Shown here: in pieces, positions 32,760 to 64,000 of the stretch | Layout: each line of letters begins with the position of its first letter | How positions within the stretch are numbered: position 1 is the stretch's first letter | NCBI RefSeq assembly: GCF_026151205.1 | Contig: NC_087084.1 | Span: 15,640,322-15,704,321 of the forward strand | From: Bolinopsis microptera | Lineage: Eukaryota > Ctenophora > Tentaculata > Lobata > Bolinopsidae | Direction of reading: 5' to 3' | DNA: 64,000 bases | The notes under the pieces: generated by a model | Databases searched by the model: none | What the model was told of the DNA's origin: nothing | The model's input: only the letters and a program-made list of their open reading frames with translations | Position numbers and translations under genes: made by a program

Positions 32760-33575
32760 AGCTCTGTTTTTGTGCGTGAACCACCTGGCCCTCTCCCTAA
32801 AACTGAGAATTTAAGACCTGACAATGAGAGTATTGATGATATTGATGATATGGAAGTCAACAGTTCTGATATAAAAAAGCAACTTTTAAAGCTTAACATT
32901 TTTAAGAGTTCTGGTCCGGATGGTGTTCATCCGAAGTTGTTGAAATCGCTAGCTTATGACAACAATTTTGTTGAAGCAATAACTAAATTATTTCAAAAGT
33001 GTTCAGATACAGGATCTTTACCTGCAGTGTGGAAATCTGCATCTGTTGTAGCATTGTTTAAAAAGGGTATTAAATCAGACCCCTTAAATTATAGACCAGT
33101 TTCATTAACTTGTATTTTGTGCAAAGTGTATGAAAAGTTGGTGAGAGCACATGTTTTAAATTTTCTAGAACATCGAATTTCGAAGCATCAGCATGGATTT
33201 GTTAAGGGTAAATCGTGTTTATCTAATCTTTTAGAGACATTTGATGACATTCTTGACATTTTAGATGAAGGTGCCCCGGTTGATCTTCTATACTTTGATT
33301 TTAGTAAGGCGTTCGACACAGTCCCCCACTTTAGACTTCTGTCTAAATTGGAAGGCTTTGGTGTCAAAGGAAAGGTTTTAGATGTTATTAAAGATTTTCT
33401 GACAGACAGGACTATGAGGGTTTCTGTAGAAGGACAATGGTCCGAGGTTAAACATGTTTTATCTGGTGTTCCTCAGGGGTCAGTTCTAGGCCCTCTCCTA
33501 TTCATTCTGTATATTAATGATTTGCCTGACCTTGTAAAAAATAAGATAAAGTTATTTGCTGATGATACCAACAGC
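32757..33575 (+). mobile_element. LINE reverse-transcriptase fragment (second family)
   Basis: The frame contains the thumb-less core of a LINE reverse transcriptase: SSGPDGVHPKLLK, LNYRPVSLTCILCKVYEKL, QHGFVKGKSCLSNLL, YFDFSKAFDTVPH, SGVPQGSVLGPLLF and LFADDTN with the catalytic Asp pair. Residue choice (FADD, GVPQGSVLGPLLF) is that of the CR1/Rex/Jockey group. It lacks its endonuclease and C-terminus: on the left it joins the inverted piece of the AlkB-LINE, on the right an opposite-strand LINE. Confidence 0.85.
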
Positions 33576-34980
33576 TATTGCTCTGTAGTTGTCCGGGCTG
33601 AAAGGGTTGCCAGACTTGTAAATAGGAGTAATGATGCTGGTGTGCCATGGATAGTAACCAGAGACCAGTGAGTGGTTGAAGTTTTTGAGGATGGCTTTGA
33701 GACAAAGCGGAGTTACGCTCTGAAGCATCTCGTTGGATATCAAGTCGTTTGAGCAACTTTTACCTTTTTTGAGATTTTTGATGGCAGAGGTCACTTCAGA
33801 TTCTGACATGAGCTTATTTAGGATATCCAGATCTGGTGGTTCAGGGTAATGTTTGTGATTGTGGTGAGTGAGATCTGGCTCCTGGTCTGGTTTTTTATAA
33901 AGGGATGCAAAGAAGTCATGGAAGCTAGCTAAATCAAATTTGTCAAGTAAGGGGCTAGTGTCATGTTCTTGTTTAAGCCGTTTAAATTTTTTCCAGTCGA
34001 GTATGTGACCTTCTTCTATAGCTTCATTTAACTTCTTAAGGAAAGCTACTTTCTTACTGTTTACAAAATTGCTATGCTTGTTGCGTTGCTTAAAGTATTC
34101 TCGTCTGAGGATACAGTTACAGTGCTTACTACCAAGCCGGTTTGCTAGCCTATTTAGGTTCCGCCGTGAGGAGTTGACTTGTGGGTCGAACCATTTCTTA
34201 CGGGCAGAATTTTTGGGAGGCTTTTTCACTTTTAAGGCTATATCAGCAGCACTGTGGAGACATTTTATGACTGCATCGTTCAGTTCGTGATTGCCCTCCA
34301 GAGTACTGCTAAATTCATTTGTCACAATGCTTTCCAGATTGTTGATAATTTCGGGCGAGGTAAGGGCTTTTTTAAATAGTGAATGGGAGGTGTTGCTATC
34401 CCACTTATAGCCACAAGGAAAGTTAGAAAAGTCTGGGAGCTGGAAGTTTGCGACAAATGGTTCAAATGTAGTGAGTTTCAAGACTAATGGACAATGATCA
34501 GAGTATGATGTAAACTCTTTTACTTGGAGAGAGTTTACATGATCTCTTGCCCATGAGGTGATTACAAAATAGTCAACCACACTGCTTCCATTGTATTTGT
34601 GACAGGTCATTTTTCCAGTGGTGTCCCCAAGGGTACGACCATTAAGAATTTTGAGTTGGTTATTGATAACCATGTCAAGAAAGTGTTGGCAGTGGGGTTC
34701 AGATATTGTAAGGTCAGAATTATTTCTTGGTTCTTCTATGTCGTGCTCGAGTCCAATGTCGTTATAGATGTCATGGATGGCAGGTGCATTACAGGAAAGG
34801 ATATAGTCTGGGAGTTTTCCAGTTCTTGCATTTGCATCGCCACACATAATAACTTCTCCCTTTTGACGTAGTCTGATACAGATAGAGTCAAGAGCAGAGA
34901 AGGTATTAGCAGTATAATCTGGATTCTTCTTGACATAGGACGAGTATGCAGGGCTAATATAATAACATACCAAAAATAGG
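33570..34980 (-). mobile_element. LINE endonuclease and RT-start fragment (third family)
   Basis: A 473-codon minus-strand frame. The N-terminal half is the second part of an APE-type endonuclease (Ile-Met-Cys-Gly-Asp-Ala-Asn-Ala-Arg; Val-Asp-Tyr-Phe-Val-Ile; Tyr-Ser-Asp-His-Cys-Pro-Leu). A Lys-rich linker follows, then the first RT block (SCSNDLISNEML; TPIYKSGNPFSPDNYRAIAV). It stops at the junction with the + strand RT at about 33575. It is a fragment: both the 5' part of the endonuclease and most of the RT are absent. Confidence 0.8.
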
Positions 34981-35619
34981 TCAAAATCAAGTTTAAAAAA
35001 GTTCTTGTCCCTTATTAAGTGCGCGGCGCGGCACAGTAACGCATCGCGCTACAATGCATTTTGATAATCTAGCGATGTCGTTGCGAGAAGCATAATTGTG
35101 TTGTATCACGTTGCGACCCCCACGGTCGTTTCACTATGTATCGTCCTGACGATACAGGGGAAGCCGCGCACTTCGTGCGCGGCGGGTCATACAACGTATG
35201 ACAATAATTGTGTGCTTGGCGCGGGACAGTAACGCATCGCGCTACAACGGAATAACAGGCTAGGAGCGCCGCCTGACCTTACCTGGGGACCTCAGGCTAT
35301 CATGTTCATTAATAGAAATTCGGCGGAATGACAGGTTGAGCGCGGCCCAGTAACGCCTGGCCCAGTAAACAGTAAACCTATTTTGCTCGCCCAAAAATTA
35401 TTGCGTGTTTTGGGTTTTTACGGTTTTGCAGCCGAACAAAACGGTTTTTACATAAAACCTAATTTAATCCCAACCATAACCATAATACCCTCAGGGCTTT
35501 TTCACAAGAAAACAATCATGGAATATCGATTTATGAAATTTAAACATGACATTTAGAAAACAAGTCGGTTAATGAAATATTTTGAAAATAACGTTCACTT
35601 CTGTTTTAGAATTTTTATT

Positions 35620-35731
35620 TAATTGACGATGTCAATTCATCTCAGCTCGGCGCGGCACAGTAGCGCATCTCGCCGATCTAGAGAAGCCTCATTGAGTGCG
35701 CGGCGCGGCACAGTAACGCATCGCGCTACAA
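35620..35731. mobile_element. 112-bp MITE, copy 2
   Basis: Same family as 3154-3252: TAATTGACGATGTCAATTC at the left, CGCATCGCGCTACAA at the right. The flanking AT-rich 9-mers differ by one base (ATTTTTATT and AATTTTATT). Confidence 0.75.
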
Positions 35732-35953
35732 AATTTTATTTAATTTTGAATTACGCTGATAAAAATTTATGATTGAGACGAATTTTCGAGTAGTTTATAG
35801 TAAAAAGCGTATTTTACATCTCATGAGCATATCTAATATCCACGAGTTTACTATTATATCGGATGTTCAAGTTTAACTATGTTTATTTAGAAAACAAGTC
35901 GGTTAATGAAATATTTTGAAAATAACGTTCACTTCTGTTTTAGAATTTTTATT

Positions 35954-36065
35954 TAATTGACGATGTCAATTCATCTCAGCTTGGCGCGGCACAGTAGCGC
36001 ATCTCGCCGATCTAGAGAAGCCTCATTGAGTGCGCGGCGCGGCACAGTAACGCATCGCGCTACAA
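35954..36065. mobile_element. 112-bp MITE, copy 3
   Basis: Nearly identical to the copy at 35620, within the ~334-bp direct duplication. The flanks are AATTTTTATT on both sides (9-10 bp). Confidence 0.75.
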
Positions 36066-36339
36066 AATTTTTATTTAATTTTGAATTACGCTGATAAAAA
36101 TTTATGATTGAGACAAATTTATGATTGAGACGAATAATTTGAGTGTTCAGGAATGGTATGTTACAACTCCCCCGAAGGGGCGTACTAAGCTAAGGGTCAT
36201 CTACACTCTATTAGGGTCATCTACACTTTACTAGGGTCATCAACTCTGAAGTCCTAATCCCCTCCAAAACAAAACACTTAACGGGAGCCGACCCCAAGTC
36301 GGATCTATTTGGTCAGTATTACTTATATTTGACTTGAGA

Positions 36340-38463
36340 ATGGCGACAAATACTAGGAAGAATTCAGGTACTCCTAAAACATCTAATAGCTTGTCTCGCA
36401 ACATTTTAGCTGAATCTACAGTGGACAATGAAGATCAGGAAAACAGGAAACATAGGGACAAGAAGAAATGTCCATGTCAACGCTCTTTTAACGGTAAAGT
36501 TTACCTCATTGACTGTTCTAAGTGTCATCAAGAGTGGCATGTGGACTGCCTGTCTATGAAGGGTATAACGAGGTCAGCTATCAACTCCATGGTAGAATGG
36601 CTGTGCCCATACTGCTTCGTGGCACCAGTATCAACACTGAAGAAACAGAGAGGTGAATTTTGTTACAGCTGCAGGAACACAAGGGCTTTGCAACAGGCCA
36701 ACTCAGATTTTGAAGCATCTACAGCTGTTAAGAATCTTGAAACTGTCAGTGCACTCGTGGCATCAGCAAGCTCAGCAGGCTCAGCTCTTGAAAAATTTGA
36801 CTTCGAACAGTTCTCTAGGAACCTTGACACTCTCTCCCAGTTCGACGTTCACCTTCAACACCTGCTTCTTAAAGAGAACTCCCTTAATGGGCTAAATAAT
36901 GAAATAAAGCTTCATGACAAATCATTAGAATCAATCAATACTAATATTGCCGAACTTCAGAAGGACCTGAAACTTCTGTCATCCAGACCATCTACAGAAC
37001 CATCCTCACCCTCAGCTTCATCTGAGCAGTTTCTGAAGGACATCTCTGAACAGCTCACTGTACTCTGTGCCAATGAGCACACTGCAGCTGCAGGCATAAG
37101 TGAATTGAAACAATCCTTAGACTCATTACAGCCATTGCATAATCCTGGCCCCTGCATTCCTCCCACCCCATTGCATCCAGGACCTCCTACTCAGCACCTT
37201 CGTTCTCCAGTCCCTACAGTCCCTGTGCAGCTACCCAATCATGAGCAGAAACCTGTGGAAATGTTCAAAGATGACTACATTGATCAGCAAACAGCAAATG
37301 ATTTAGGAGAACTTTTTGTTAAGGACAGCAGTCACTTCAAAGTTGAGAACGACCGCTCCTGCCTAACATATGGGGAAAGGTATGATTACCCAGGTTCCAA
37401 GTCATCTGAAAAGCCACAGGCAATACCATCGGTTCTCAAGGAACTCATTGACAAAATCAATAATGAGTTCTGCCAGGGTGATCTACCTCAGATCAACAGC
37501 TGCTTAGTAAATCGGTTTGAAGGAACAGACAGCAAGCTACCTAGACACTCTGATGACGAGGCTACCATCCATCCAGAGTCTAAAATATTCACTGTCTCGC
37601 TTGGTTCTGCATGTCAGGTTTCTTTCTCTGACTCTCACACAGGCACTGATAAGCACAAGCAGCAATGTGACCCACGGTCCTTGTATGTTATGACACGTCA
37701 TAGCCAAGCACTGTTCGACCATCGTATTGATGCAGGTGATATAGAAGGGCTACGTTACAGCATCACACTTAGATCCGTGAATTCGTTGAACAGAAATGCC
37801 ACATGCATCATCAGGGATTCAAACACTGGAGGCTTGAAATTTGGTACTGATCCTGCTAAGTCATTCGGCAAGTGGTTACCTGGCAAACGCATCTTCGCTC
37901 CGGTCATTGATAATATAGATCCTTATGTCACGTTGGGGTATAGAAACTGTGTAATATTGTGCGGGGTCAACGACCTCAAAAACGAAGACGTCAAGAACCA
38001 ACATGACATTGAAATTATTTATAACGCATTAGCTTCAAAGATTGCACAGATACAATCTGTCAATCCGTGTATACATGTTTTTGTTTGTCCAGCAATTCCC
38101 TCTAAACGTGCTGACTTAAATAGAAAACTTATATATTTTAACAGTTTGATTCGACGCAGGCTGCTCCCGTCCAATTTTGGTGTCAGTTATGTGGATGGAT
38201 TTGATGAGTTCTGTGATAGAGATGGTCTACTTGACCGCTCTCTCTCTCGCGACCTCAACAAACACCAAAAACCAGACTTCCTTCACCTCAACTGGAGGGG
38301 ACTAGCAAAGTTAGGTCAATTTATTCGTAACACTGTTCTTCTCAGGATTAACGGTGGTATCGACAGGGATGTGACTGCTGGAAGAGAAACTGGTCCTGTT
38401 GTTCCTGCTGCTGCTAGTCAGGGTCACGTGGATGGCTACCAACCACATGACTCCCCTCATTAA
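36340..38463 (+). CDS. LINE ORF1: PHD finger, AlkB-like dioxygenase, SGNH hydrolase
   Basis: 707 residues from the ATG at 36340. (1) PHD finger, residues 44-92, ligands C44, C46, C59, C62, H67, C70, C89, C92. (2) A Leu/Lys/Glu-rich coiled-coil-like stretch, about 150-215, then a Pro-rich linker. (3) AlkB-like Fe(II)/2-oxoglutarate oxygenase, about 300-485: LPRHSDDEA with H403-x-D405, then SLG, the distal H461 in LFDHRI, and RYSITLR with R472 and R478, in the same order and spacing as AlkB. (4) SGNH/GDSL-type hydrolase, about 488-690: S494 in IIRDSNT, N544 in GVND, D646 and H649 in DFLH. By family knowledge AlkB repairs alkylated bases and PHD binds histone tails; a role in chromatin targeting and in protecting or de-modifying the element's nucleic acid is inference. 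It overlaps ORF2 by 32 bases. Confidence 0.9.
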   Translation: MATNTRKNSGTPKTSNSLSRNILAESTVDNEDQENRKHRDKKKCPCQRSFNGKVYLIDCSKCHQEWHVDCLSMKGITRSAINSMVEWLCPYCFVAPVSTLKKQRGEFCYSCRNTRALQQANSDFEASTAVKNLETVSALVASASSAGSALEKFDFEQFSRNLDTLSQFDVHLQHLLLKENSLNGLNNEIKLHDKSLESINTNIAELQKDLKLLSSRPSTEPSSPSASSEQFLKDISEQLTVLCANEHTAAAGISELKQSLDSLQPLHNPGPCIPPTPLHPGPPTQHLRSPVPTVPVQLPNHEQKPVEMFKDDYIDQQTANDLGELFVKDSSHFKVENDRSCLTYGERYDYPGSKSSEKPQAIPSVLKELIDKINNEFCQGDLPQINSCLVNRFEGTDSKLPRHSDDEATIHPESKIFTVSLGSACQVSFSDSHTGTDKHKQQCDPRSLYVMTRHSQALFDHRIDAGDIEGLRYSITLRSVNSLNRNATCIIRDSNTGGLKFGTDPAKSFGKWLPGKRIFAPVIDNIDPYVTLGYRNCVILCGVNDLKNEDVKNQHDIEIIYNALASKIAQIQSVNPCIHVFVCPAIPSKRADLNRKLIYFNSLIRRRLLPSNFGVSYVDGFDEFCDRDGLLDRSLSRDLNKHQKPDFLHLNWRGLAKLGQFIRNTVLLRINGGIDRDVTAGRETGPVVPAAASQGHVDGYQPHDSPH

Positions 38464-41400
38464 GGAGGTATGTCTTGTCTGTTCTAAGAACATAGTCATC
38501 GGCCAAACAATAGTTGAATGTTTCCACTGTGACTGCATAATGCACCATAAATGCTATCGCAAATCCAATACAAATAGCCAATCTAATGAGTTTTACTGTA
38601 CTCGTTGTATCCATTTAGACAAGGTTAAATACAACCCATTTAAACTACTCACTGACAATGACAACGACGACAACAACCTAGACGAATACACAACCAAAAT
38701 CTCGAATACTTTAAATAATTGTAACTCATACACTGCATCTGACCTTACCAATATTCTCTGCAACCAAGTAAAGAAACAATCATCTATTCTCTTTCAAAAT
38801 ATTGATGGAAATAAATCAAATTTTGACAACCTTGCCATTGAAACCTGTAGGTACAAAACAAAATTCTCCGTAATAGGCCTAGCTGAAACCAACACTGGGA
38901 AAGAATTAAGCAACCTATTTCAGCTCGACGGTTATAATAGTTACTATCAGGACACAGCACCTAACAAACAAAAGGGCACTGGAGTAGCCCTTTATGTTGA
39001 CGATAGATTAAATGCTACAGTAATTGAAAATATATCACAAGTCACAGAACATCTAGAAATACTTGTCTTATCATTAAGTAACGAAGATCAACCTGTTAAT
39101 GTAGGTGTTTTGTATCGTCCACCAAGTGGCTGTATTTCCCAAGCTCTAGTTGAACTTTCTAACCTTCTTGATCACATGCCGAAGTTTAGTTATCTAGCTG
39201 GAGACTTTAATATCGATCTTCATGATAAAGATAACAAAAATGTACAAAAATATGAAGAAATATTGTTCAGTAAAGGATTTTGTCCGTTAATATCTATTGC
39301 TACTCACGAAAAACCAGGCTGTAAAGCATCTTGCATAGACAACATAATTACCAACGACATTGAGAATGTTATTACTTCAGGCACCCTAAAAGAACGAATA
39401 ACTCACCACTCGCCTATTTTTAACATATTTAACTGGAATGTTGAAGTCAACTCTGGAAAAACTTCTATGAAACAGTATTACGATTTCTGTCAATCAAATG
39501 TTAACGGCTTCCTAGTGGATCTTGAAGATGAGCTTAAAACTAAAATAATCCATAACTTTACTGAATTCCATGACACTTACAAAAACTGCATCGAAAAATC
39601 GTTTAAACTAGAAACCCCGAAAACCTCTAAGAGAACTGTTAAGGTTAACCCTTGGATAACTCCCGGTCTCATTTGCTCAATTAATAATCAGCATAAACTG
39701 TACGAAAATTGGGTTGAGATAAGAAATAGAAAATGTAAACTCGGGGAAACTGATAACAAGGGCGGGATTTGCCAGTGCCCTGAATGCTCACTAAAACGTA
39801 GTCGCTACCTTATCTACAAAGAATACAGAAAAGTCCTAAAGAAAACACGTCAAACAGTGAAAACAGATTACTTCTCTGGTAAATTTGCAGAAAATAGCGG
39901 GAATAGTAAAAAGACCTGGGAACTAATTAATAGTATAAGAGGAAAACGGCGGCGTGAAATAAAGCCGCTGTTCACCATAGACAACGTTAAGATAACGAAC
40001 AGGAGGATCATAGCAAACGAATTCAATAAGTATTTCGTATCATTGGCCTCTGACCTAAATACTGCTTACAATGAACTTGGTCAAATGAACATAAACAATC
40101 TACCTAGTTTCTATGACTATTTACCGCTCTCAAACACCTCCAGCATTTACATGCATGACTGCACAACAGACGAGGTTAGCAAAATCATATCTGAACTTAA
40201 GAACGGTAAGGCAAGTGATATTCCTATTCATGTTGTAAAACAGTCCTCAAAAATAGTCACTCCTCTACTTACTGTACTGTACAATAAATGTATGAAAGAT
40301 GGCATATTCCCTGATGACCTTAAGATTGGAAGGATTAGTCCAATTTACAAGAAAGATAACCAGGAACTCCTTGAAAATTATAGACCTGTGTCGACACTTG
40401 CAGTATTTGGTAAAATATTTGAAAAAATTATATTCAACAGATTATATAGCTTCTTTCATTCACAGAATTCCTTGTATGAAAACCAGTACGGATTCCGTAA
40501 AAATCATTCGACTAGTTATGCTTTAAATTACTCAGTTAACCACATAGAATCACGTCTCAAGAAAAAACAACACGTACTTGGAATATTTATTGATCTTAGC
40601 AAAGCTTTTGATACAATCTCACATGAAAAGTTACTGCATAAGTTAGAAAATTATGGGATCCGTGGAAATGCAAACAACCTTATAGCAAGTTACCTGTCGA
40701 ATAGATACCAGTATGTCTCAGTATTAGGTGAAGACTCTGAGAAGCTGCCCGTTGTCTACGGAGTGCCCCAAGGGTCCTGTTTAGGTCCCCTGCTGTTTAT
40801 CATCTACATAAATGACATCCGAAACTCATCAATTATAGGAACGTTTATACTATTTGCCGATGACACTAACATATTTATTGAAGAAACATGTGTCAGAAGA
40901 CTGTACGAAAAGGGAAATGAAGTTTTAGCATCTGTTTATAAGTATATGAAACTAAACTTATTACATATTAACATTAAGAAATGCTGTTTTATCCACTTTA
41001 GACCGTCACGTGCCAAAGAGGAAGTAGAAAATGACGAGAACATATTAACTTTGAACAATGTTGTCATTAAAAAAGTCCAAGAAGCTAAATTTCTAGGTGT
41101 CATTATCGATGATCAACTTAATTGGAAAACTCACACACGGTCACTTAACTCAAAACTTAAATGTGAAGTAGGTAAGTTATGCAGAATACGACACATTGTC
41201 CCTAAACAGTATTATAAGGATTTATACCATACTTTATTCGAATCACATTTGGGATTTGGAATATCTGTATGGGGTGGTATTAGCAACAACCGACTCGAAC
41301 CTCTCTTTAAAACACAGAAAAAGTGTATAAGAATTCTATTTGGGGATAAAGAAGCTTACTTAGAAAAATTTAGAACTTGTGCCCGGACACGACCATTTGG

Positions 41401-41800
41401 TGAGCAAAGACTAGGTGTGGACTTTTACAAAAAAGAACACTCTAAGCCCTTGTTTAAGAATCAGAAATTGTTAACTGTTCACAACCTGTATAAGTACACT
41501 TGTCTCTTAGAACTATTCAAAATTAATAAGTTAGAGGAACCATTATCACTGTACTCATCATTTAACAGGTCACCACGACGAGAGGATTATTTCATCACAT
41601 CACAACCATCCTCACAATTCATCTACCAATCATCCTACATGTGGAACAGCTGTCGACAAACATCAAGTAAGATAAGTTTTAATACTCCGACAAACGGGTT
41701 TAAGAATACATTGAAAATTGCTTTACAAGAATTGCAATTCAAGCATGATACACTTGATTGGTGTGAGCTTAATTTTGCCACGAATAAGCTCAAGTTTTGA
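38432..41800 (+). CDS. LINE ORF2: PHD-like finger, APE endonuclease, reverse transcriptase
   Basis: 1122 residues from the ATG at 38432 (an alternative ATG is at 38447). It begins in the +1 frame relative to ORF1, with a 32-base overlap, so re-initiation after ORF1 is plausible. An N-terminal C4HC3 zinc finger (C14, C17, C30, C33, H38 or H39, C41, C56, C59) is followed by an APE endonuclease (FQNIDG, GLAETNT, AGDFNIDL, CIDNIITND, THHSPIF). A Cys-rich CQCPECSLKRSRY segment is next, then the RT (ENYRPVSTLAVFGKIFEKI, YGFRKNHST, FIDLSKAFDTISH, GVPQGSCLGPLLF, LFADDTN around residue 808) and a C-terminal region. All catalytic residues that can be judged are present. It nicks target DNA and reverse-transcribes the element RNA. 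Confidence 0.95.
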   Translation: MATNHMTPLIKEVCLVCSKNIVIGQTIVECFHCDCIMHHKCYRKSNTNSQSNEFYCTRCIHLDKVKYNPFKLLTDNDNDDNNLDEYTTKISNTLNNCNSYTASDLTNILCNQVKKQSSILFQNIDGNKSNFDNLAIETCRYKTKFSVIGLAETNTGKELSNLFQLDGYNSYYQDTAPNKQKGTGVALYVDDRLNATVIENISQVTEHLEILVLSLSNEDQPVNVGVLYRPPSGCISQALVELSNLLDHMPKFSYLAGDFNIDLHDKDNKNVQKYEEILFSKGFCPLISIATHEKPGCKASCIDNIITNDIENVITSGTLKERITHHSPIFNIFNWNVEVNSGKTSMKQYYDFCQSNVNGFLVDLEDELKTKIIHNFTEFHDTYKNCIEKSFKLETPKTSKRTVKVNPWITPGLICSINNQHKLYENWVEIRNRKCKLGETDNKGGICQCPECSLKRSRYLIYKEYRKVLKKTRQTVKTDYFSGKFAENSGNSKKTWELINSIRGKRRREIKPLFTIDNVKITNRRIIANEFNKYFVSLASDLNTAYNELGQMNINNLPSFYDYLPLSNTSSIYMHDCTTDEVSKIISELKNGKASDIPIHVVKQSSKIVTPLLTVLYNKCMKDGIFPDDLKIGRISPIYKKDNQELLENYRPVSTLAVFGKIFEKIIFNRLYSFFHSQNSLYENQYGFRKNHSTSYALNYSVNHIESRLKKKQHVLGIFIDLSKAFDTISHEKLLHKLENYGIRGNANNLIASYLSNRYQYVSVLGEDSEKLPVVYGVPQGSCLGPLLFIIYINDIRNSSIIGTFILFADDTNIFIEETCVRRLYEKGNEVLASVYKYMKLNLLHINIKKCCFIHFRPSRAKEEVENDENILTLNNVVIKKVQEAKFLGVIIDDQLNWKTHTRSLNSKLKCEVGKLCRIRHIVPKQYYKDLYHTLFESHLGFGISVWGGISNNRLEPLFKTQKKCIRILFGDKEAYLEKFRTCARTRPFGEQRLGVDFYKKEHSKPLFKNQKLLTVHNLYKYTCLLELFKINKLEEPLSLYSSFNRSPRREDYFITSQPSSQFIYQSSYMWNSCRQTSSKISFNTPTNGFKNTLKIALQELQFKHDTLDWCELNFATNKLKF

Positions 41801-42099
41801 TTAATGTGAGTTACTAAAATAACCACTTATCTTTCCTCATACATGCAACCACTGCACTCCAACTAAACACATTATTTACCACAGTCCACACACCATACTC
41901 CACAGATGATATATTTATATATACACACAAACACACTAGTACCGAACAATTGCACTGTAAAACATGCTCACGATACACTCAAAATTAGAAATATTCGGCT
42001 CGTATATGAAACTTAGCGACTTACACTCAGTGTACACCTTGTAGCGCGATGCACTACTGGGTCGCGCGCGCATCAAATAATGCTTCTCGCAACCACAGT

Positions 42100-58900: not shown

Positions 58901-61900
58901 ATTATGATATTTAAATATGACATTATAGTGATGATGATAAAAACGTTTAAACACCTGTGTACTACGATATGACGTATTGAGAGTAATGAGTATATCACTG
59001 CACAGCGAGGGTATTAAAATACACATAAGCTGAGTCAAGTGTGCTAACAAGGTAACAAGCAAGTAACAAGTTATATTATGAAGGAGCACACACAAGCAGT
59101 GTATTAAACGTGTTATAAGTAGATAAGCAGTGTTCAGTCACAGCTGCACGCTACAGAGCGAAATTAATAGGTTCGGAACTTATATAATAACACTATGCTA
59201 ATTGTACCGTCAAAACTTTCAACTTTATTATTTCGGAACCAAAGTTTTACTAAATCATCTTTAATGAAACAAATTTTAAATTTTACAGCCATTTTCGAAT
59301 ATAACTGTACTTGGATCGAAATTTTGCCAGTTACCAATAAATGAGTTCAATGTGGATGGCACATGACACAATTGGGGTATAGAAAGTCAGAATCACGGAG
59401 AGAAATGGGAAATCACCAAAATTAGTGAGGCAGCTGTGGAGTGTGGAATGGGGGGGGGGGGGGGGGGGGGGGGGGGGGGCGGGGTTTACTGTTTAGCTGT
59501 GAGGAAAAAGTCTGATAATACTTAGTAGTATATAATTTATAAGAGAGCACCGGATTGTGCATGAGGAGGAGATCAAGATCCAGAGTTTTGAGAAGGGTGT
59601 GCACCTGGTGACCACACCTGCTTGGAGAAACACCCGACAAGCTGCTACTGGTGGAGTTGGGTTTATGCTGACCAAGCAGGCCTACAAAGCAGTGAGTCTC
59701 ATGAAATCGTTTGGGAAGCGAATTTTTCTCATATCCTTTGATGGAAACCCACGGCTTACAGTAATAACGGTGTACAGTCCCACTGAAGCAGCATCAAATG
59801 AAGAGGCAGAGGACTTTCACGAGGGACTAAGATCTGCATTAGGAGAGGTACCAGCCCATCATCTGCTAATGGTTGTTGGTGATCTTAACGCCCATCTTAG
59901 CAGATTAAATGAGGAGGATTCAGGTTGGTACTGGCATCGAGTATCCAACAGAAACGGATCGCTTCTCAGGGATACTTTGTTGGAGGGAAACCTTGAGGCA
60001 ACTAACCACCGATTCCAGAAACGTCCCGGTAAACTATGGACGTATCTCTCTGACGGAACACTGAGCAAGAGTCAGATTGATTACATCCTGATAAGGAAGA
60101 AGTGGCGTAACTCAGTCAAGGACACTGTTGTCTCCAATTCTTTTAACTCTCTTGGGTCGGACCACCGTCTAGTAGTTAGTTCAGTCAAACTCAGCCTGCG
60201 AAAGTGCCAGAATGCACCTAGAGTAGTAAGATATGACTACAGACTGCTCAAAGAGAATAAGGAGTTGCAAGCCTTGTATTCTGTGGAGGTGAAAAACAGA
60301 TTCTCTATGCTACTGGAGGAAGAATCTAGTGAGCAGAACGATCCCACGATTCAGTACGGAAAGCTTATGGATGCCGTGAAAGCAACCAATCATAAGTTGC
60401 TTAAGCCCATCCCAAGAAGACAACGTAACAACCCCTCCCAAGATCCTAGGGTATCGGAGAGGAGGAGAACTCTGTTTCAGGCCAAAGACGCATATCATGA
60501 GAATCCTTCAGAGGAGAGTAGAGAGGTAGTTAAGGAGTGTAAGGATGCACTTGCAGTGAGCTACAAAGAGGTTGAGGAGGAGACTCTTGTTTCTCGGATC
60601 AGGCGGGCTGAGGATGCTGCTGACAGGTGCAAGAATAAGGAAAGTTGGGACCTTATTAATGACATAAATGGCAGGAAAAGCAAGCCATGCAGCCTGGTTG
60701 ATGGAGGTAGTGCAGAGGGGAGATTGAAGAGCTGGAAAGACCACTTCACTAAGCTCCTGGGTCAACCACCATCTGTACCTGACCAGGAAATAGTTATCCA
60801 AACCATCCACCCCCAGCAGGATTGTATAGAGACTGGTCTGTTTTGCAGGGAGGAGTTAGCGGAGGCGAGGAAGCAGATCAAGGAGGGTAAGGCCTATGGT
60901 GATGATGGCATAGCTCCAGAGATTCTCAAAAGAGTGGACATGGACGACCTGATTCTAGAGTTCTGTAACAGCGCTTTGGTTGATGGAAAAATCCCTGATC
61001 AATGGCGGCAACTCAACATCGTGCCTGTGCCAAAGAAAGGAAATCTAACTAAAGTGGATAACTACAGAGGAATCGCTCTTACGTCCATTGTTAGTAAGAC
61101 CCTGAATCGTATGATCCTTAACAGAATCAAACCAGCGATGGAGAAAATCCTGAGGATCAACCAAAACGGATTTCGGGAGGGACGCAGTACCACCAGCCAC
61201 ATTCTGTGTCTAAGGAGGATCTTGGAGGGGGCTAGAGACAAAAACCTGACCGCCCTTCTCTTGTTCATCGATTTTAAGAAGGCCTTTGATAGCATTCATA
61301 GGGGTATATTGATGAAGATACTCCTGGCATATGGGATACCAGAGCCCATTGTTAGGCTGATAGATGCTATGTACAAGGACACCATGGCACGAGTCATCAC
61401 GGAGGATGGTCTGACTGAAGCTTTCCTTATACTTGCTGGAGTTATGCAGGGAGATACACTGGCGCCCTACCTCTTCGTGATTGTCATTGACTATGTGATG
61501 ACAACAGCACTTAGAGGCAAAGATCTGGGCTTCACTGTCAACCCCAGAAGAAGCAGGAGATACCCAGCAGTTAAGATGACAGATGTCGACTTTGCTGACG
61601 ATCTTGCACTGACAACAGACACCGCAGAGCAAGCGCAAGATCTTCTCCTCAGTGTGGAGCTGGCTGCTAACTCCGTTGGACTTCACCTCAACGAGAGTAA
61701 GACGAAGTACATCAGAGTCAATCTCTCTGAGTCTGACTCTACCGTCATTAAAGCAGCAAGTGGGCAGGAGATAGAGCAAGTAGATGACTTTGTCTACCTT
61801 GGAAGCAGAATAATGAGTGCGGAGAAGGACTTTGATGTTAGGAAAGCAAAGGCATGGGGGGCCTGTCATCAGTTAAAGACAACCTGGAAGTCTGGAATGC

Positions 61901-64000
61901 GCAGGGACTTAAAGATCCGTGTCTTTCGAGCAACGGTTGAGCCCGTACTCCTGTACGGCTCTGAAGCTTGGACGATAAGCCAATCCATGACTAAGCGGAT
62001 CAATGGATGCTACACTAGAATGCTCCGGATGGCCTTGAACATACGTTGGCCGCAAATCATCAACAACAGTGATTTATACGGCAACATCCCCAAGCCATCA
62101 GCGATGATAGCCTCCAGAAGAATGAGACTGGCTGGACATGTAGCCAGGCATGACGACCTTCTGGCAAACCAACTTCTGTTCTGGGACCCTCAGCATGGAT
62201 ACAGGAGACCGGGGAGGCCCCACCTTACGTTTCTGGACATGCTAAAGAAGGACACCAGCCTTTCCTGTGTTGAAGAGATAAGATCTGTTATGCTTGACCG
62301 CGACGTGTGGCGAGGAATTGTAGTTGCTCGGACCAAGAAGCCGACTTAAGTCAGTAAGTCAATTTATATAATTTATATAATATAAGTGAATAAACAGGTT
62401 TTTGTAAATTCTAAGATATAATCCTTTATTATTTTGTAACCAATTTTTCTTTTCAGTAAAGGACCCCTCACCTCGTCCAGCCCCTGACCAGTATTTCTAT
62501 TTCAGTAAACACGCCCCGGTTTACAGAAAGGACCCCCTCACCTCGTCCAGCCCCTGATCAGTATTTCTATTTCAGTAAACACGCCCCGGTTTGCAGAAAG
62601 GACCCCCTCACCTCGTCCAGCCCCTGACCAGTATTTCTATTTCAGTAAACACGCCCCGGTTTGCAGAAAGGACCCCCTCACCTCGTCCAGCCCCTGATCA
62701 GTATTTCTATTTCAGTAAACACGCCCCGGTTTGCAGAAAGGACCCCCTCACCTCGTCCAGCCCCTGACCAGTATTTCTATTTCAGTAAACACGCCCCGGT
62801 TTGCAGAAAGGACCCCCTCACCTCGTCCAGCCCCTGACCAGTATTTCTATTTCAGTAAACACGCCCCGGTTTGCAGAAAGGACCCCCTCACCTCGTCCAG
62901 CCCCTGACCAGTATTTCTATTTCAGTAAACACGCCCCGGTTTGCAGAAAGGACCCCCTCACCTCGTCCAGCCCCTGACCAGTATTTCTATTTCAGTAAAC
63001 ACGCCCCGGTTTGCAGAAAGGACCCCCTCACCTCGTCCAGCCCCTGACCAGTATTTCTATTTCAGTAAACACGCCCCGGTTTGCAGAAAGGACCCCCTCA
63101 CCTCGTCCAGCCCCTGACCAGTATTTCTATTTCAGTAAACACGCCCCGGTTTGCAGAAAGGACCCCCTCACCTCGTCCAGCCCCTGACCAGTATTTCTAT
63201 TTCAGTAAACACGCCCCGGTTTGCAGAAAGGACCCCCTCACCTCGTCCAGCCCCTGATCAGTATTTCTATTTCAGTAAACACGCCCCGGTTTGCAGAAAG
63301 GATCCCCTCACCTCGTCCAGCCCCTGACCAGTATTTCTATTTCAGTAAACACGCCCCGGTTTGCAGAAAGGACCCCCTCACCTCGTCCAGCCCCTGACCA
63401 GTATTTCTATTTCAGTAAACACGCCCCGGTTTGCAGAAAGGACCCCCTCACCTCGTCCAGCCCCTGACCAGTATTTCTATTTCAGTAAACACGCCCCGGT
63501 TTGCAGAAAGGACCCCCTCACCTCGTCCAGCCCCTGACCAGTATTTCTAATTCAGTAAACACGCCCCGGTTTGCAGAAAGGACCCCCTTACCTCGTCCAG
63601 CCCCTGACCAGTATTTCTATTTCAGTAAACACGCCCCGGTTTGCAGAAAGGACCCCCTCACCTCGTCCAGCCCCTGACCAGTATTTCTATTTCAGTAAAC
63701 ACGCCCCGGTTTACAGAAAGGACCCCCTCACCTCGTCCAGCCCCTGACCAGTATTTCTATTTCAGTAAACACGCCCCGGTTTGCAGAAAGGACCCCCTCA
63801 CCTCGTCCAGCCCCTGACCAGTATTTCTATTTCAGTAAACACGCCCCGGTTTGCAGAAAGGACCCCCTTACCTCGTCCAGCCCCTGACCAGTATTTCTAT
63901 TTCAGTAAACACGCCCCGGTTTGCAGAAAGGACCCCCTTACCTCGTCCAGCCCCTGACCAGTATTTCTATTTCAGTAAACACGCCCCGGTTTGCAGAAAG
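52902..64000 (+). CDS. Unrecognised proline-rich gene, partial, with a 9.1-kb intron
   Basis: Exon 1 is 52902-53050: ATG, then PKPAYVVTPPNLSSPTYKHF and a basic end KEEKVK, with an upstream in-frame stop. Exon 2 is 53235-53350: RVLLYGEMPAREVSSHSHHY ... HSPPTPPGKRVSQT. Exon 3 starts at 62457 after TTTTTCTTTTCAG: KDPSPRPAPDQYFYFSKHAP then VYRK. Junction phases fit exactly: AA then A for Lys, and A then TA for Ile. The protein is basic, rich in Pro, Ser, His and Tyr, and possibly disordered; no domain is recognised. The second intron (53351-62456) holds the inverted-terminus element and the RTE LINE. Exon 3 sits in a 70-bp array, and the gene leaves the window. Confidence 0.5.
53043..53112 (-). 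mobile_element. Tail fragment of a dispersed element at an exon end
   Basis: AAAGTAAAGTAAGTAAAG followed by GTGACATCAC and CATCACACATGTCTACAA matches the 3' tail at 26657-26730 in the same orientation. It overlaps the donor of the exon ending at 53050, so the GTAAGT donor may come from the element's simple-repeat tail. Confidence 0.5.
53363..53520 (+). repeat. 28-bp array just inside an intron
   Basis: Five to six identical copies of a unit containing AATAACTTACTAACTTAAC then AAGTTGTTA, starting about 12 bases after the donor at 53351. The units carry TTACTAAC, close to the branch-point consensus. Confidence 0.92.
54985..55245 (+). mobile_element. LINE C-terminal fragment inside the inverted-terminus element
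   Basis: The reading PIEDEIHVLTDCLLYSS then VREKF resembles the Cys/His region near the C-terminus of CR1-like LINEs (usually with IEDE.HFLL.CP.Y). The frame continues about 60 residues to a stop. It is a truncated passenger. Confidence 0.55.
55751..55828 (+). repeat. tRNA-derived (SINE-like) head
   Basis: GTGGCGTGACGGCTAGAG fits an A box and ACGTTCGATTCC a B box of RNA polymerase III, about 35 bases apart. The full cloverleaf does not close well, so a tRNA-derived SINE relic is more likely than a gene. Confidence 0.4.
57005..59541. other. Intronic stretch with G homopolymers
   Basis: Contains runs of 13, 20 and 30 consecutive G at 57754-57766, 58550-58569 and 59450-59479. A GGTGGTAAAGTG-like imperfect repeat lies near 57600-57720. 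At 59255-59285 there is a possible relic of the AlkB-LINE 3' tail (ATGAAACAAATTTTAAATTT). No exon seen. Confidence 0.6.
59542..62395 (+). mobile_element. RTE-type LINE, 5'-truncated, with an open ORF
   Basis: LINE similarity starts near 59542 and ends in a short AT-rich 3' UTR (to about 62395, with GTGAATAAACAGG), typical of RTE elements with very short tails. The insertion lies in the large intron of the unrecognised + gene, only about 60 bases before its exon 3. Its 5' end follows the G30 tract by about 60 bases. Confidence 0.85.
59557..62349 (+). CDS. RTE LINE endonuclease-reverse transcriptase
   Basis: About 930 residues. The frame opens after a TAA at 59533 and the first residues are Arg-Glu-His-Arg-Ile-Val, the endonuclease QEHR motif, so roughly the first 40 residues are missing and no proper ATG is seen; 59557 is a GTG. 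The APE endonuclease follows (TGGVGFMLT, VVGDLNAHLSR, SQIDYILIRKKWRN, LGSDHRLV). The RT holds PVPKKGNLTKVDNYRGIAL, NGFREGRSTTSHI, LFIDFKKAFDSIHR, GVMQGDTLAPYLF and DFADDLALTTD (near residue 678). A C-terminal YLGSRI and GRPHLTFLDML region ends it. These motifs are those of the RTE clade. The frame is otherwise intact. Confidence 0.93.
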   Translation: MHEEEIKIQSFEKGVHLVTTPAWRNTRQAATGGVGFMLTKQAYKAVSLMKSFGKRIFLISFDGNPRLTVITVYSPTEAASNEEAEDFHEGLRSALGEVPAHHLLMVVGDLNAHLSRLNEEDSGWYWHRVSNRNGSLLRDTLLEGNLEATNHRFQKRPGKLWTYLSDGTLSKSQIDYILIRKKWRNSVKDTVVSNSFNSLGSDHRLVVSSVKLSLRKCQNAPRVVRYDYRLLKENKELQALYSVEVKNRFSMLLEEESSEQNDPTIQYGKLMDAVKATNHKLLKPIPRRQRNNPSQDPRVSERRRTLFQAKDAYHENPSEESREVVKECKDALAVSYKEVEEETLVSRIRRAEDAADRCKNKESWDLINDINGRKSKPCSLVDGGSAEGRLKSWKDHFTKLLGQPPSVPDQEIVIQTIHPQQDCIETGLFCREELAEARKQIKEGKAYGDDGIAPEILKRVDMDDLILEFCNSALVDGKIPDQWRQLNIVPVPKKGNLTKVDNYRGIALTSIVSKTLNRMILNRIKPAMEKILRINQNGFREGRSTTSHILCLRRILEGARDKNLTALLLFIDFKKAFDSIHRGILMKILLAYGIPEPIVRLIDAMYKDTMARVITEDGLTEAFLILAGVMQGDTLAPYLFVIVIDYVMTTALRGKDLGFTVNPRRSRRYPAVKMTDVDFADDLALTTDTAEQAQDLLLSVELAANSVGLHLNESKTKYIRVNLSESDSTVIKAASGQEIEQVDDFVYLGSRIMSAEKDFDVRKAKAWGACHQLKTTWKSGMRRDLKIRVFRATVEPVLLYGSEAWTISQSMTKRINGCYTRMLRMALNIRWPQIINNSDLYGNIPKPSAMIASRRMRLAGHVARHDDLLANQLLFWDPQHGYRRPGRPHLTFLDMLKKDTSLSCVEEIRSVMLDRDVWRGIVVARTKKPT
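62457..64000 (+). repeat. 70-bp array repeating a 3' splice site and exon, open to the right
   Basis: About 22 copies of a 70-bp unit continue past the window end. Each unit contains GTATTTCTATTTCAG followed by TAAACACGCCCCGG, a good acceptor context, and the coding-like GACCCCCTCACCTCGTCCAG. The first copy is preceded by the stronger acceptor TTTTTCTTTTCAG and has one C fewer. Reading on from the first copy stops at a TGA in the second. A few copies vary (TGATCA for TGACCA; TTACAG for TTGCAG). Confidence 0.93.

Follow-up and report, generated by a model that had tools for sequence, protein, structure and literature searches.

An AlkB-type dioxygenase domain in the ORF1 protein of a ctenophore LINE, with counterparts in other LINEs and a Helitron of the same genome

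In this study, we examined a LINE of the ctenophore Bolinopsis microptera that encodes an AlkB-like dioxygenase in its first protein, placed between a PHD finger and an SGNH hydrolase. This arrangement had been proposed in an earlier note on the window, by which we mean the whole 64,000-nucleotide stretch analysed, and its reading of the letters is correct: the open frame translates without a stop, and translation recovers H403-S-D405, H461 and R472-x5-R478 of the AlkB part, the complete C4HC3 ligand set of the PHD finger (C44, C46, C59, C62, H67, C70, C89 and C92) and S494, N544 and D646-x-x-H649 of the SGNH part. Its assignment of the frame to a LINE is borne out by an adjoining ORF2 with endonuclease and reverse transcriptase and by many copies. 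The element (Table 1) is thus a multi-copy non-LTR retrotransposon, and it is young. A host gene in place of an element was considered and is ruled out by 70 ORF1 matches in the genome with ORF2 adjoining. The genome itself is marked as that of a ctenophore by its glutamate receptor and by 13 contigs of chromosome size.

Table 1. Coordinates in the window of the LINE, its reading frames and domains, and a neighbouring fragment
Feature	Position	Strand	Basis or remark
LINE element	about 36133-42038	+	blastn against sister copies; 5' and 3' junctions inspected
LINE 5' bound	about 36133		within spliced-leader remnant
LINE 3' bound	about 42038		point where similarity to another copy ends
Spliced-leader remnant, last 11 nt AATAATTTGAG	36133-36143	+	junction inspection
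5' UTR	36144-36339	+	comparison with sister copies
ORF1, 707 aa: PHD, predicted coiled coil, AlkB, SGNH	36340-38463	+	
PHD finger, aa 44-92	36469-36615	+	Pfam PHD 9e-4 (below cut-off); profile match to DIDO1/CXXC1
Long helices, aa 115-261, probable coiled coil (low confidence)	36682-37122	+	model, pLDDT about 35-55
AlkB 2OG-Fe(II) dioxygenase domain, aa 308-480	37261-37779	+	Pfam, profile, predicted fold
H403-S-D405, Fe(II) ligands	37546-37554	+	H403 and D405 in 47/47 element copies
H461, third Fe(II) ligand	37720-37722	+	47/47 element copies
R472-x5-R478, 2-oxoglutarate/active-site arginines	37753-37773	+	47/47 element copies
SGNH hydrolase domain, aa 488-670 (S494, G515, N544, D646, H649)	37801-38349	+	
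ORF2 from first in-frame ATG	38432-41800	+	overlaps ORF1 end; open frame listed from 38399
Zinc-binding PHD/RING-like motif, ORF2 start	38462-38611	+	weak Pfam 0.002-0.05, all below cut-off
Endonuclease domain (Exo_endo_phos) in ORF2	38864-39358	+	3.5e-4, slightly below cut-off
Reverse transcriptase in ORF2	40349-41107	+	RVT_1 6e-37
ORF2 fragment of another AlkB-carrying LINE lineage, 91% to L057	33552-34973	-	neighbours the LINE

The 5' end of the element begins with the tail of a spliced leader, 11 nt long here but at least 41 nt in sister copies, and the leader sequence is the exon of tandem SL RNA genes. In sister copies the leader is joined at 36144, 36151, 36215 or 36235, the last three points each lying immediately 3' of an AG. 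No target-site duplication was seen by eye at the junctions of the element.

The identification of the AlkB domain draws on sequence profiles, a predicted fold and the retention of its active site. Pfam finds 2OG-FeII_Oxy_2 at residues 335-478 with an E-value of 1e-14 and 55.7 bits, against a cut-off of 31.2, and a profile of 15 relatives searched against the PDB returns ALKBH3 (4e-20), ALKBH2 (7e-18) and ALKBH8 (5e-11), the HSDDE of the family being paired with the HSDDE of ALKBH3. The predicted model is confident over residues 300-480 (pLDDT about 88), and all 50 PDB fold matches listed for it are AlkB homologues, with Foldseek E-values of about 1e-11 and target-normalised TM scores of up to 0.76 among the matches listed, so that the domain is predicted to adopt the double-stranded beta-helix fold of AlkB, as the earlier note had supposed. 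Neither outcome that it had named as refuting arose, whether a missing fold match or loss of the metal and 2-oxoglutarate ligands in most other copies: H403, D405, H461, R472 and R478 are found in 47 of 47 element-borne copies, including four LINE lineages and one Helitron. This count leaves out L001 (the same place as the copy studied here) and frames that score below 60 bits or span fewer than 130 profile positions, namely those of 391 aa in L002 and of 409 aa in L019 and both pieces of L040; it was made with a profile built from 31 of the same sequences, and three presumed host ALKBH frames were counted separately. A chance match to AlkB was rejected on the Pfam score above cut-off and these 47 copies. 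The residue next to the HxD motif varies among the 47 (N in 26, D in 19, R and S in one each), and specificity may therefore differ between families and from ALKBH3. T418 and S474 are present in all 47, with S and N at these positions in the three presumed host frames, which is a hint that the element-borne domains may have a single origin; in a 19-row tree the split between element and host sequences has weak support (66/21).

Either side of this domain, the evidence for the PHD finger and the hydrolase comes from residues and profiles. In the protein itself Pfam places Lipase_GDSL_2 at 8e-6 and PHD at 9e-4, both below the curated cut-offs; among 31 aligned relatives, which include four PHD-less lineages and some rows that lack the N-terminus, matches at E<=0.001 number 31 for 2OG-FeII_Oxy_2, 24 for GDSL_2 and 14 for PHD. 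The 15-relative profile matches SGNH hydrolases of known structure at 6e-7 and the PHD fingers of DIDO1 and CXXC1 at 2e-3 and 3e-3. S494, G515, N544 and H649 are invariant in the 31 relatives and D646 is kept in at least 90% of them. The model is confident for the SGNH part (residues 510-665, pLDDT about 88) and middling for the PHD part (pLDDT 64-74), and Pfam finds no PHD in L041-L046, the six AlkB-bearing frames read outside this family. The copy studied here is slightly atypical: it lacks 14 residues just beyond the SGNH domain and has an R in place of the G ahead of the SGNH Asp-Ser; these two changes rule it out as the best representative of its family, and sister copies are therefore better examples.

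What the earlier note had missed is that, in this one genome, the AlkB domain recurs in Helitrons and in several lineages of LINEs; we count at least about 150 AlkB matches above cut-off there, at least one of them a host ALKBH gene. The domain occurs in four diverged LINE lineages and in a Helitron, and both in this family and in all six further full frames that were read it is accompanied by an SGNH domain, in three different arrangements. Within the family, 37 copies align across ORF1 at 41-100% identity to the present one, which also speaks against chance, and the family alignment extends down to 19-22% identity. Both reading frames are open in 14 of the best 20 copies; the search for ORF2 copies scored the best 41 of 7408 candidates. 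Some copies are broken. The single TGA of the 85% family proves to be the terminal stop in the plus-strand members inspected (L011, L014, L016 and L020). Scans of viral contigs yielded 3 candidate stretches with the protein and 36 with the alignment, none of them a relative. The AlkB domain is under purifying selection: of 12 pairs compared, five gave a usable dN/dS (0.23, 0.15, 0.12, 0.08 and 0.14), two of these five comparing the same two families, while five pairs were saturated in this domain, the present copy and L002 differed by one synonymous and zero nonsynonymous changes, and L029 and L032 by two nonsynonymous and zero synonymous changes.

To judge what the domain may do, its homologues were ranked by sequence and by fold. 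By sequence, ALKBH3 followed by ALKBH2 are the top structures for the family profile and, separately, for two other lineages, and ALKBH5 and FTO are absent from these match lists; the single sequence of the present copy finds ALKBH2 at 0.05. By fold, ALKBH6 comes first, mixed with ALKBH2 and ALKBH3, and ALKBH5, ALKBH7, ALKBH8 and AlkB also appear, the alignments listed having 12-22% identity, which is a distant relationship. Because ALKBH3 and ALKBH2 appear nearest by sequence, repair of RNA or cDNA would be a better fit than erasure of a host chromatin mark.

LINEs use RNA and cDNA intermediates, and Helitrons single-stranded DNA intermediates. We infer the enzymatic activity, the substrate and the benefit to the element as follows. 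The coiled coil would collect ORF1 protein on element RNA within the ribonucleoprotein particle (RNP), where the AlkB domain would strip groups of the N1-methyladenine/N3-methylcytosine type from the pairing face of single-stranded element RNA and cDNA; since methyl groups at these positions hinder reverse transcriptases, their removal would keep the template copyable through target-primed reverse transcription. In the available text of one study, m1A hinders an R2 reverse transcriptase protocol, and AlkB treatment takes off m1A and m3C, raising the capture of m1A-bearing fragments (PMC12140624). All carriers examined to date are LINEs apart from one Helitron, and Helitrons would be covered by the same logic through their single-stranded intermediate. 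That an active AlkB domain in the RNA-packaging protein of the LINE serves in this way is the reading we favour, at just short of an even chance.

The main rival is that the domain clears N6-methyladenosine from the mRNA of the element (or of the host) and so evades m6A-based surveillance. Such an escape has been proposed for the AlkB of an orchid Gypsy element, which demethylates m6A RNA in vitro according to the accessible part of that report (PMC9289625). Both m6A writer and reader domains are present in the host genome (MT-A70, 7 matches; YTH, 5 matches), and therefore a role of m6A is conceivable, as the presence of ALKBH5 among the fold matches would also allow. We nevertheless find this doubtful, as the sequence searches group the domain with ALKBH3 and ALKBH2 rather than with ALKBH5 or FTO, Helitrons would be left without a direct explanation, and human L1 retrotransposition is described, in the text available, as aided by m6A and suppressed by ALKBH5 (PMC7873242). 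A role at the target site, with the PHD finger recruiting ORF1 protein to marked histones and AlkB demethylating host DNA in favour of integration or expression, would make use of a finger that lies in the same protein of this family and is nearest to those of DIDO1 and CXXC1 among solved structures, and the TET/JBP enzymes of fungal DNA transposons have been explained likewise in the part of the source available (PMC12730594); the domain here, however, belongs to AlkB and not to TET/JBP, and the six AlkB frames read outside the family are those without a Pfam PHD, which makes this role very unlikely in our view.

The constant company of the SGNH domain, within the family and in all six other full frames, raises the idea that the two enzymes work together, their common target being a single unknown modification or else a lipid or protein substrate needed for RNP assembly, with nucleic-acid demethylation beside the point. 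The ORF1 esterase of ZfL2-1 binds lipids, according to the available text (PMC3905857), but SGNH domains also occur in ORF1 proteins of vertebrate elements for which the accessible text mentions no AlkB (PMC4120745), and at the L016 edge an AlkB frame of 222 aa contains no SGNH; we consider this pairing improbable. A bolder version, which we rate as a long shot slightly below it, is that AlkB and SGNH form a two-enzyme un-marking cassette, repeatedly assembled in different arrangements by ctenophore LINEs and Helitrons against an undiscovered host nucleic-acid mark, the target being a methyl or acyl-type base mark on foreign or single-stranded nucleic acid; if true, it would mean a genome-wide arms race over that mark. 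Finally, the domain might be a captured host ALKBH that hitch-hikes without function, and the broken copies would suit such a fossil, but this is scarcely credible in view of the five active-site residues, which all 47 copies retain along an alignment reaching 19-22% identity, AlkB dN/dS values of 0.08-0.23, and two open frames in most of the best 20 copies.

Enzymes kept by mobile elements reveal what limits those elements, and the finding of AlkB in distantly related jumping genes of one genome suggests that marks or damage on their copies were a problem that these elements had to solve. With AlkB kept intact by Helitrons and by several lineages of LINEs, the spread of these elements may be held back when their RNA or single-stranded DNA intermediates are alkylated or methylated at the bases, a limit that to our knowledge is absent from standard accounts of LINE biology, and the question is raised whether a LINE RNP repairs its own template. 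The dozens of natural AlkB variants, differing beside HxD, could in addition be of use for specificity studies and as reverse-transcription tools.

By architecture alone, the LINE resembles the CR1/L2/Jockey superfamily. CR1/L2 elements likewise have an ORF2 with endonuclease and reverse transcriptase, and in one L2 subgroup ORF2 opens with a PHD, with which the zinc-binding motif found here may be compared (PMC4120745, accessible part). Their ORF1 types III (PHD) and IV (esterase) share domains with the present protein, which has the eight-ligand C4HC3 finger of the former and the SGNH domain with Ser/Gly/Asn/Asp-x-x-His of the latter, its Pfam score being below cut-off; in that paper, however, PHD and esterase define separate types, the esterase is confined to two vertebrate subgroups, and the words AlkB and dioxygenase do not appear (PMC4120745). 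The ORF1 protein of ZfL2-1 has a coiled coil and an SGNH esterase whose S143, G165, N195, D279 and H282 correspond to S494, G515, N544, D646 and H649, but in the text accessible neither AlkB nor PHD is mentioned (PMC3905857). The earlier note knew of no standard description of the PHD-AlkB-SGNH architecture, and we likewise found none among the open-access papers listed on AlkB or dioxygenases and mobile elements or ctenophores. The nearest precedents are the AlkB domains of orchid Gypsy elements and of plant RNA viruses. In plant positive-strand RNA viruses the domain is also parasite-borne and, in the available text, interpreted as a repair domain thought to act on the virus's own RNA, although it sits in a viral polyprotein and not in a retrotransposon (PMC544882). 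The Phalaenopsis Ty3/Gypsy element Gypsy_Pa_2799 likewise encodes an AlkB-type dioxygenase, with in vitro activity demonstrated, but as far as its accessible description goes this is a plant LTR element with AlkB ending a separate ORF, called ALKBH5-like and described as a recent acquisition (PMC9289625), whereas here the carriers are several lineages of LINEs, with AlkB inside the ORF1 protein, and Helitrons; the present element, being non-LTR and ALKBH3/2-like by sequence, is not of the orchid type. Fungal DNA transposons including Helitrons similarly show 2-oxoglutarate dioxygenases on many unrelated mobile elements, but those are TET/JBP enzymes acting on 5mC, with no retrotransposon carrier found according to the part of the report available (PMC12730594), whereas the enzyme in this ctenophore is AlkB and its carriers are mostly retrotransposons.

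The uninterrupted frame claimed for ORF1 in the earlier note is open over all 707 residues on translation, and its end and the beginning of a second frame overlap; the latter, according to Pfam, encodes endonuclease and reverse transcriptase (RT) domains. Within ORF1, the Pfam model 2OG-FeII_Oxy_2, the one matching AlkB, scores 1e-14 and lies over its curated cut-off; the SGNH (GDSL_2, 8e-6) and PHD (9e-4) matches both lie under theirs. Compared with the PDB alone, the window protein reached ALKBH2 only at E 0.05, and a profile of 15 relatives matched ALKBH3 (4e-20), ALKBH2 (7e-18), ALKBH8 (5e-11) and AlkB (3e-7), as well as SGNH hydrolases (about 6e-7) and the DIDO1 PHD finger (2e-3). An AlphaFold2 model of ORF1, built from 31 aligned sequences, is confident in the AlkB (residues 300-480) and SGNH (510-665) regions and poor in much of the remainder (mean pLDDT 65.4). 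Foldseek returned 386 PDB chains at E<=0.001 for this model, and the best 50 of the 386 are all AlkB homologues, headed by ALKBH6 (1.1e-11), then ALKBH2 and ALKBH3, with target-normalised TM scores up to 0.76 and with ALKBH5, ALKBH7, ALKBH8 and AlkB in lower rows; SGNH structures are absent from these best 50 of 386. The proposed AlkB-like middle domain is thus borne out by Pfam, by the ALKBH3/ALKBH2 profile matches and by the fold of the predicted model. The SGNH assignment is supported by the profile match and by S494, G515, N544, D646 and H649, which correspond to S143, G165, N195, D279 and H282 of the ORF1p esterase of the LINE ZfL2-1, as numbered in the available portion of PMC3905857, rather than by the fold list. 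Relative to its relatives, the window copy is without 14 residues after the SGNH domain, among them a basic KRKRR stretch, and carries R in place of G just ahead of the SGNH Asp-Ser.

An alignment of 31 ORF1 sequences, the most distant of them only 19-22% identical to the window copy, is invariant at H403, S404, D405, E407, T418, S420, G422, H461, R472, S474, T476 and R478, among others, in AlkB and at S494, G515, N544 and H649 in SGNH. Loss of the H/D/H/R residues in other copies, the outcome that the earlier note held would count against its reading, was looked for, and H403, D405, H461, R472 and R478 are each kept in 47/47 element-borne AlkB domains (E407 in 46/47). The residue after HxD is N in 26, D in 19, R in one and S in one of these 47, and D in all three frames taken as host genes; since it varies at a position that contacts the base in AlkB, ALKBH2 and ALKBH3, the element families may differ in specificity. 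Among 12 pairs, seven of which were saturated or too similar, AlkB-domain dN/dS was 0.23 for L002-L006 (13 differences), 0.15 and 0.12 for comparisons of the 97% with the 85% family, 0.08 for L021-L025 and 0.14 for L032-L034. Within single pairs (the L002/L011 and L032/L034 ORF1s) the dS values of different domains lie as much as about 16-fold apart; for L002-L011 they are 0.07 (PHD part), 1.07 (AlkB) and 0.64 (SGNH). The ORF1s therefore look mosaic, which points to template switching or to gene conversion among families.

A search of the genome (264.65 Mb, 232 contigs) with the window protein gave at least 70 ORF1 matches (best 63 of 1122 candidates scored); those listed include fragments as well as full-length groups, whose identities are 97-100%, about 85% and 42-50%. 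Of the 20 best-matching places, one of which is the window, 14 keep a full ORF1 frame together with a stop-free full ORF2 frame. For ORF2 there are at least 41 matches (best 41 of 7408 candidates scored), 30 of which extend from residue 1 or 5 through 1127 with an identity of 95-100%, and 29 of these 30 are stop-free. The family appears to be young and is probably active. An inverted 341-nt piece of the same LINE's ORF2 end, 100% identical to it, lies upstream of the element at a distance of about 3.4 kb, and the upstream side of the element adjoins a direct repeat (spacing 334 nt; 197 nt at 97% and 56 nt at 96%) that holds GGCGCGGCACAGTA motifs.

Coordinates of features in the window and at other loci (L) and contigs (C) of the same genome
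Feature	Location	Remark
ORF1	36340-38463	
Second frame (ORF2)	38399-41800	first ATG 38432
Inverted ORF2 segment	32419-32759	identical to 41352-41692
Direct repeat	35551-36120	
ORF2 fragment, L045/L057 lineage	33552-34973	minus strand
Other LINE ORF2-type frame	59557-62349	
Leader on window element	36133-36143	
Other leader-bearing copies	L003, L004, L007, L013-L015, L018, L019	and others
Spliced-leader arrays	C3:13511055-13533420; C5:21341875-21352054	
SmY match	L056:97-175	spliced-leader RNA gene unit
AlkB-containing Helitron-type frames	C10:16.876M, C3:14.44M, C12:2.47M, C12:8.34M, C9:15.87M, C9:11.09M	2200-3400 aa

The AlkB model gave at least 151 matches in the same genome (best 150 of 587 candidates scored), and one of them is the ALKBH3-like gene of the host itself; all those listed except the last are stop-free, and the frames range from 142 to 3388 aa. 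The genome's glutamate receptor frame, L052, has its best match among PDB chains (5e-55) in ML032222a, the receptor of the ctenophore Mnemiopsis leidyi, so that the host is taken to be a ctenophore. Six frames were read fully outside the window family, and SGNH accompanies AlkB in 6/6. Four of them, L041, L043 and L044 (551, 611 and 646 aa) and L042 (593 aa), have the order AlkB-SGNH, with SGNH under the Pfam cut-off, no PHD found by Pfam and an RT 2-3 kb downstream; their RTs group L041, L043 and L044 together and L042 separately, with about 26-36% identity between these two groups and the window group. L045/L057 represent a further LINE, with AlkB, a helical stretch, SGNH (under cut-off) and then endonuclease-RT, and with ORF2 at 24-31% identity to that of other lineages; an ORF2 fragment of this other AlkB carrier (91%) lies in the window, as does another LINE ORF2-type frame of 930 aa (RVT_1 4e-32). 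In L046 the order is SGNH then AlkB, in a 3388-aa frame; Helitron_like_N follows at a distance of about 4 kb, in a frame reported with an equal length, and a PIF1 helicase is present as well; on this domain content its carrier is a Helitron. There are at least six places where AlkB and Helitron_like_N lie in frames whose reported lengths agree, against 41 Helitron_like_N matches. At the edge of L016, an AlkB frame of 222 aa contains no SGNH, and the edge frames in L002 and L019 are cut off at the locus edge. The host ALKBH3-like gene, L054, matches human ALKBH3 at 4e-40, and L053 and L055 are taken from their scores and sequence as further putative host ALKBH genes. A tree of 19 AlkB domains separates the 16 element rows from the others by a branch whose support is only 66/21, a pattern that would fit one capture or several.

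ALKBH3 and ALKBH2 remove m1A and m3C, and ALKBH3 acts on single strands. The element AlkB is nearest by sequence to these two enzymes, as judged from the window-family profile and from L044 (2e-9) and L045 (5e-15) alone. Since LINE ORF1 proteins coat element RNA, an AlkB domain within ORF1p would be present on the template both ahead of reverse transcription and while it proceeds; Helitrons produce single-stranded DNA intermediates, which would likewise be an AlkB/ALKBH3-type substrate. The accessible part of PMC12140624 reports that cDNA synthesis by an R2 RT is hindered by m1A and that AlkB treatment relieves this. Alternatively, the element AlkB might act on m6A, a reading that follows the precedent of an orchid Gypsy AlkB (PMC9289625, in the part available) and for which m6A writer and reader domains are present in the host genome; however, removal of m6A by ALKBH5 is described as harmful to human L1 in the corresponding part of PMC7873242, and ALKBH5 and FTO are absent from the sequence-search lists for the window-family profile, L044 and L045.

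The literature covered AlkB or dioxygenases in connection with either mobile elements or ctenophores, CR1 esterase and PHD domains, spliced leaders and 6mA. Among the open-access matches listed, as far as their available text goes, and with Repbase reports and most subscription journals outside this range, no description of AlkB in a LINE ORF1 or a Helitron was found, and within the same range the earlier remark that no standard description of a PHD-AlkB-SGNH ORF1 is known holds. The component parts are of known kinds; the AlkB combination and its spread appear new.

Sister copies begin with a leader of at least 41 nt, ..CAACACTACTATATAACAAATAATTTGAG or variants ending ACATTTATTGAG, whose junction with the 5' UTR falls at four points; at three of these the longer form has an AG immediately before the junction, and for the outermost junction no longer form is known. 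A 29-nt leader piece occurs exactly 1150 times in the genome (control 0), in 179 cases followed by GTA, and the 100 of these 179 that were listed include tandem arrays with units of about 591 bp on C3 and about 857 bp on C5. An array unit at L056 reads TTTGAG|GTAAG, and to judge from that junction the units are spliced-leader RNA genes; the same unit has a weak SmY spliceosomal RNA match (26 bits, under the gathering threshold of 39). The leader end is found in 30/45 loci (L002-L046), a count in which the neighbour shown by L002 is identical with that shown by L030 and some loci stop short of the 5' end, and every LINE lineage read has leader-bearing members, except L042. As genomic copies begin with a joined leader, we infer that the reverse-transcribed RNA had been trans-spliced and that new copies retain the leader, whose own AG end could allow a copy to be spliced again at the same point. 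Transcripts of transposable elements (TEs) in Hydra likewise carry leaders, on about 30% of TE reads according to the part of PMC12220107 available.
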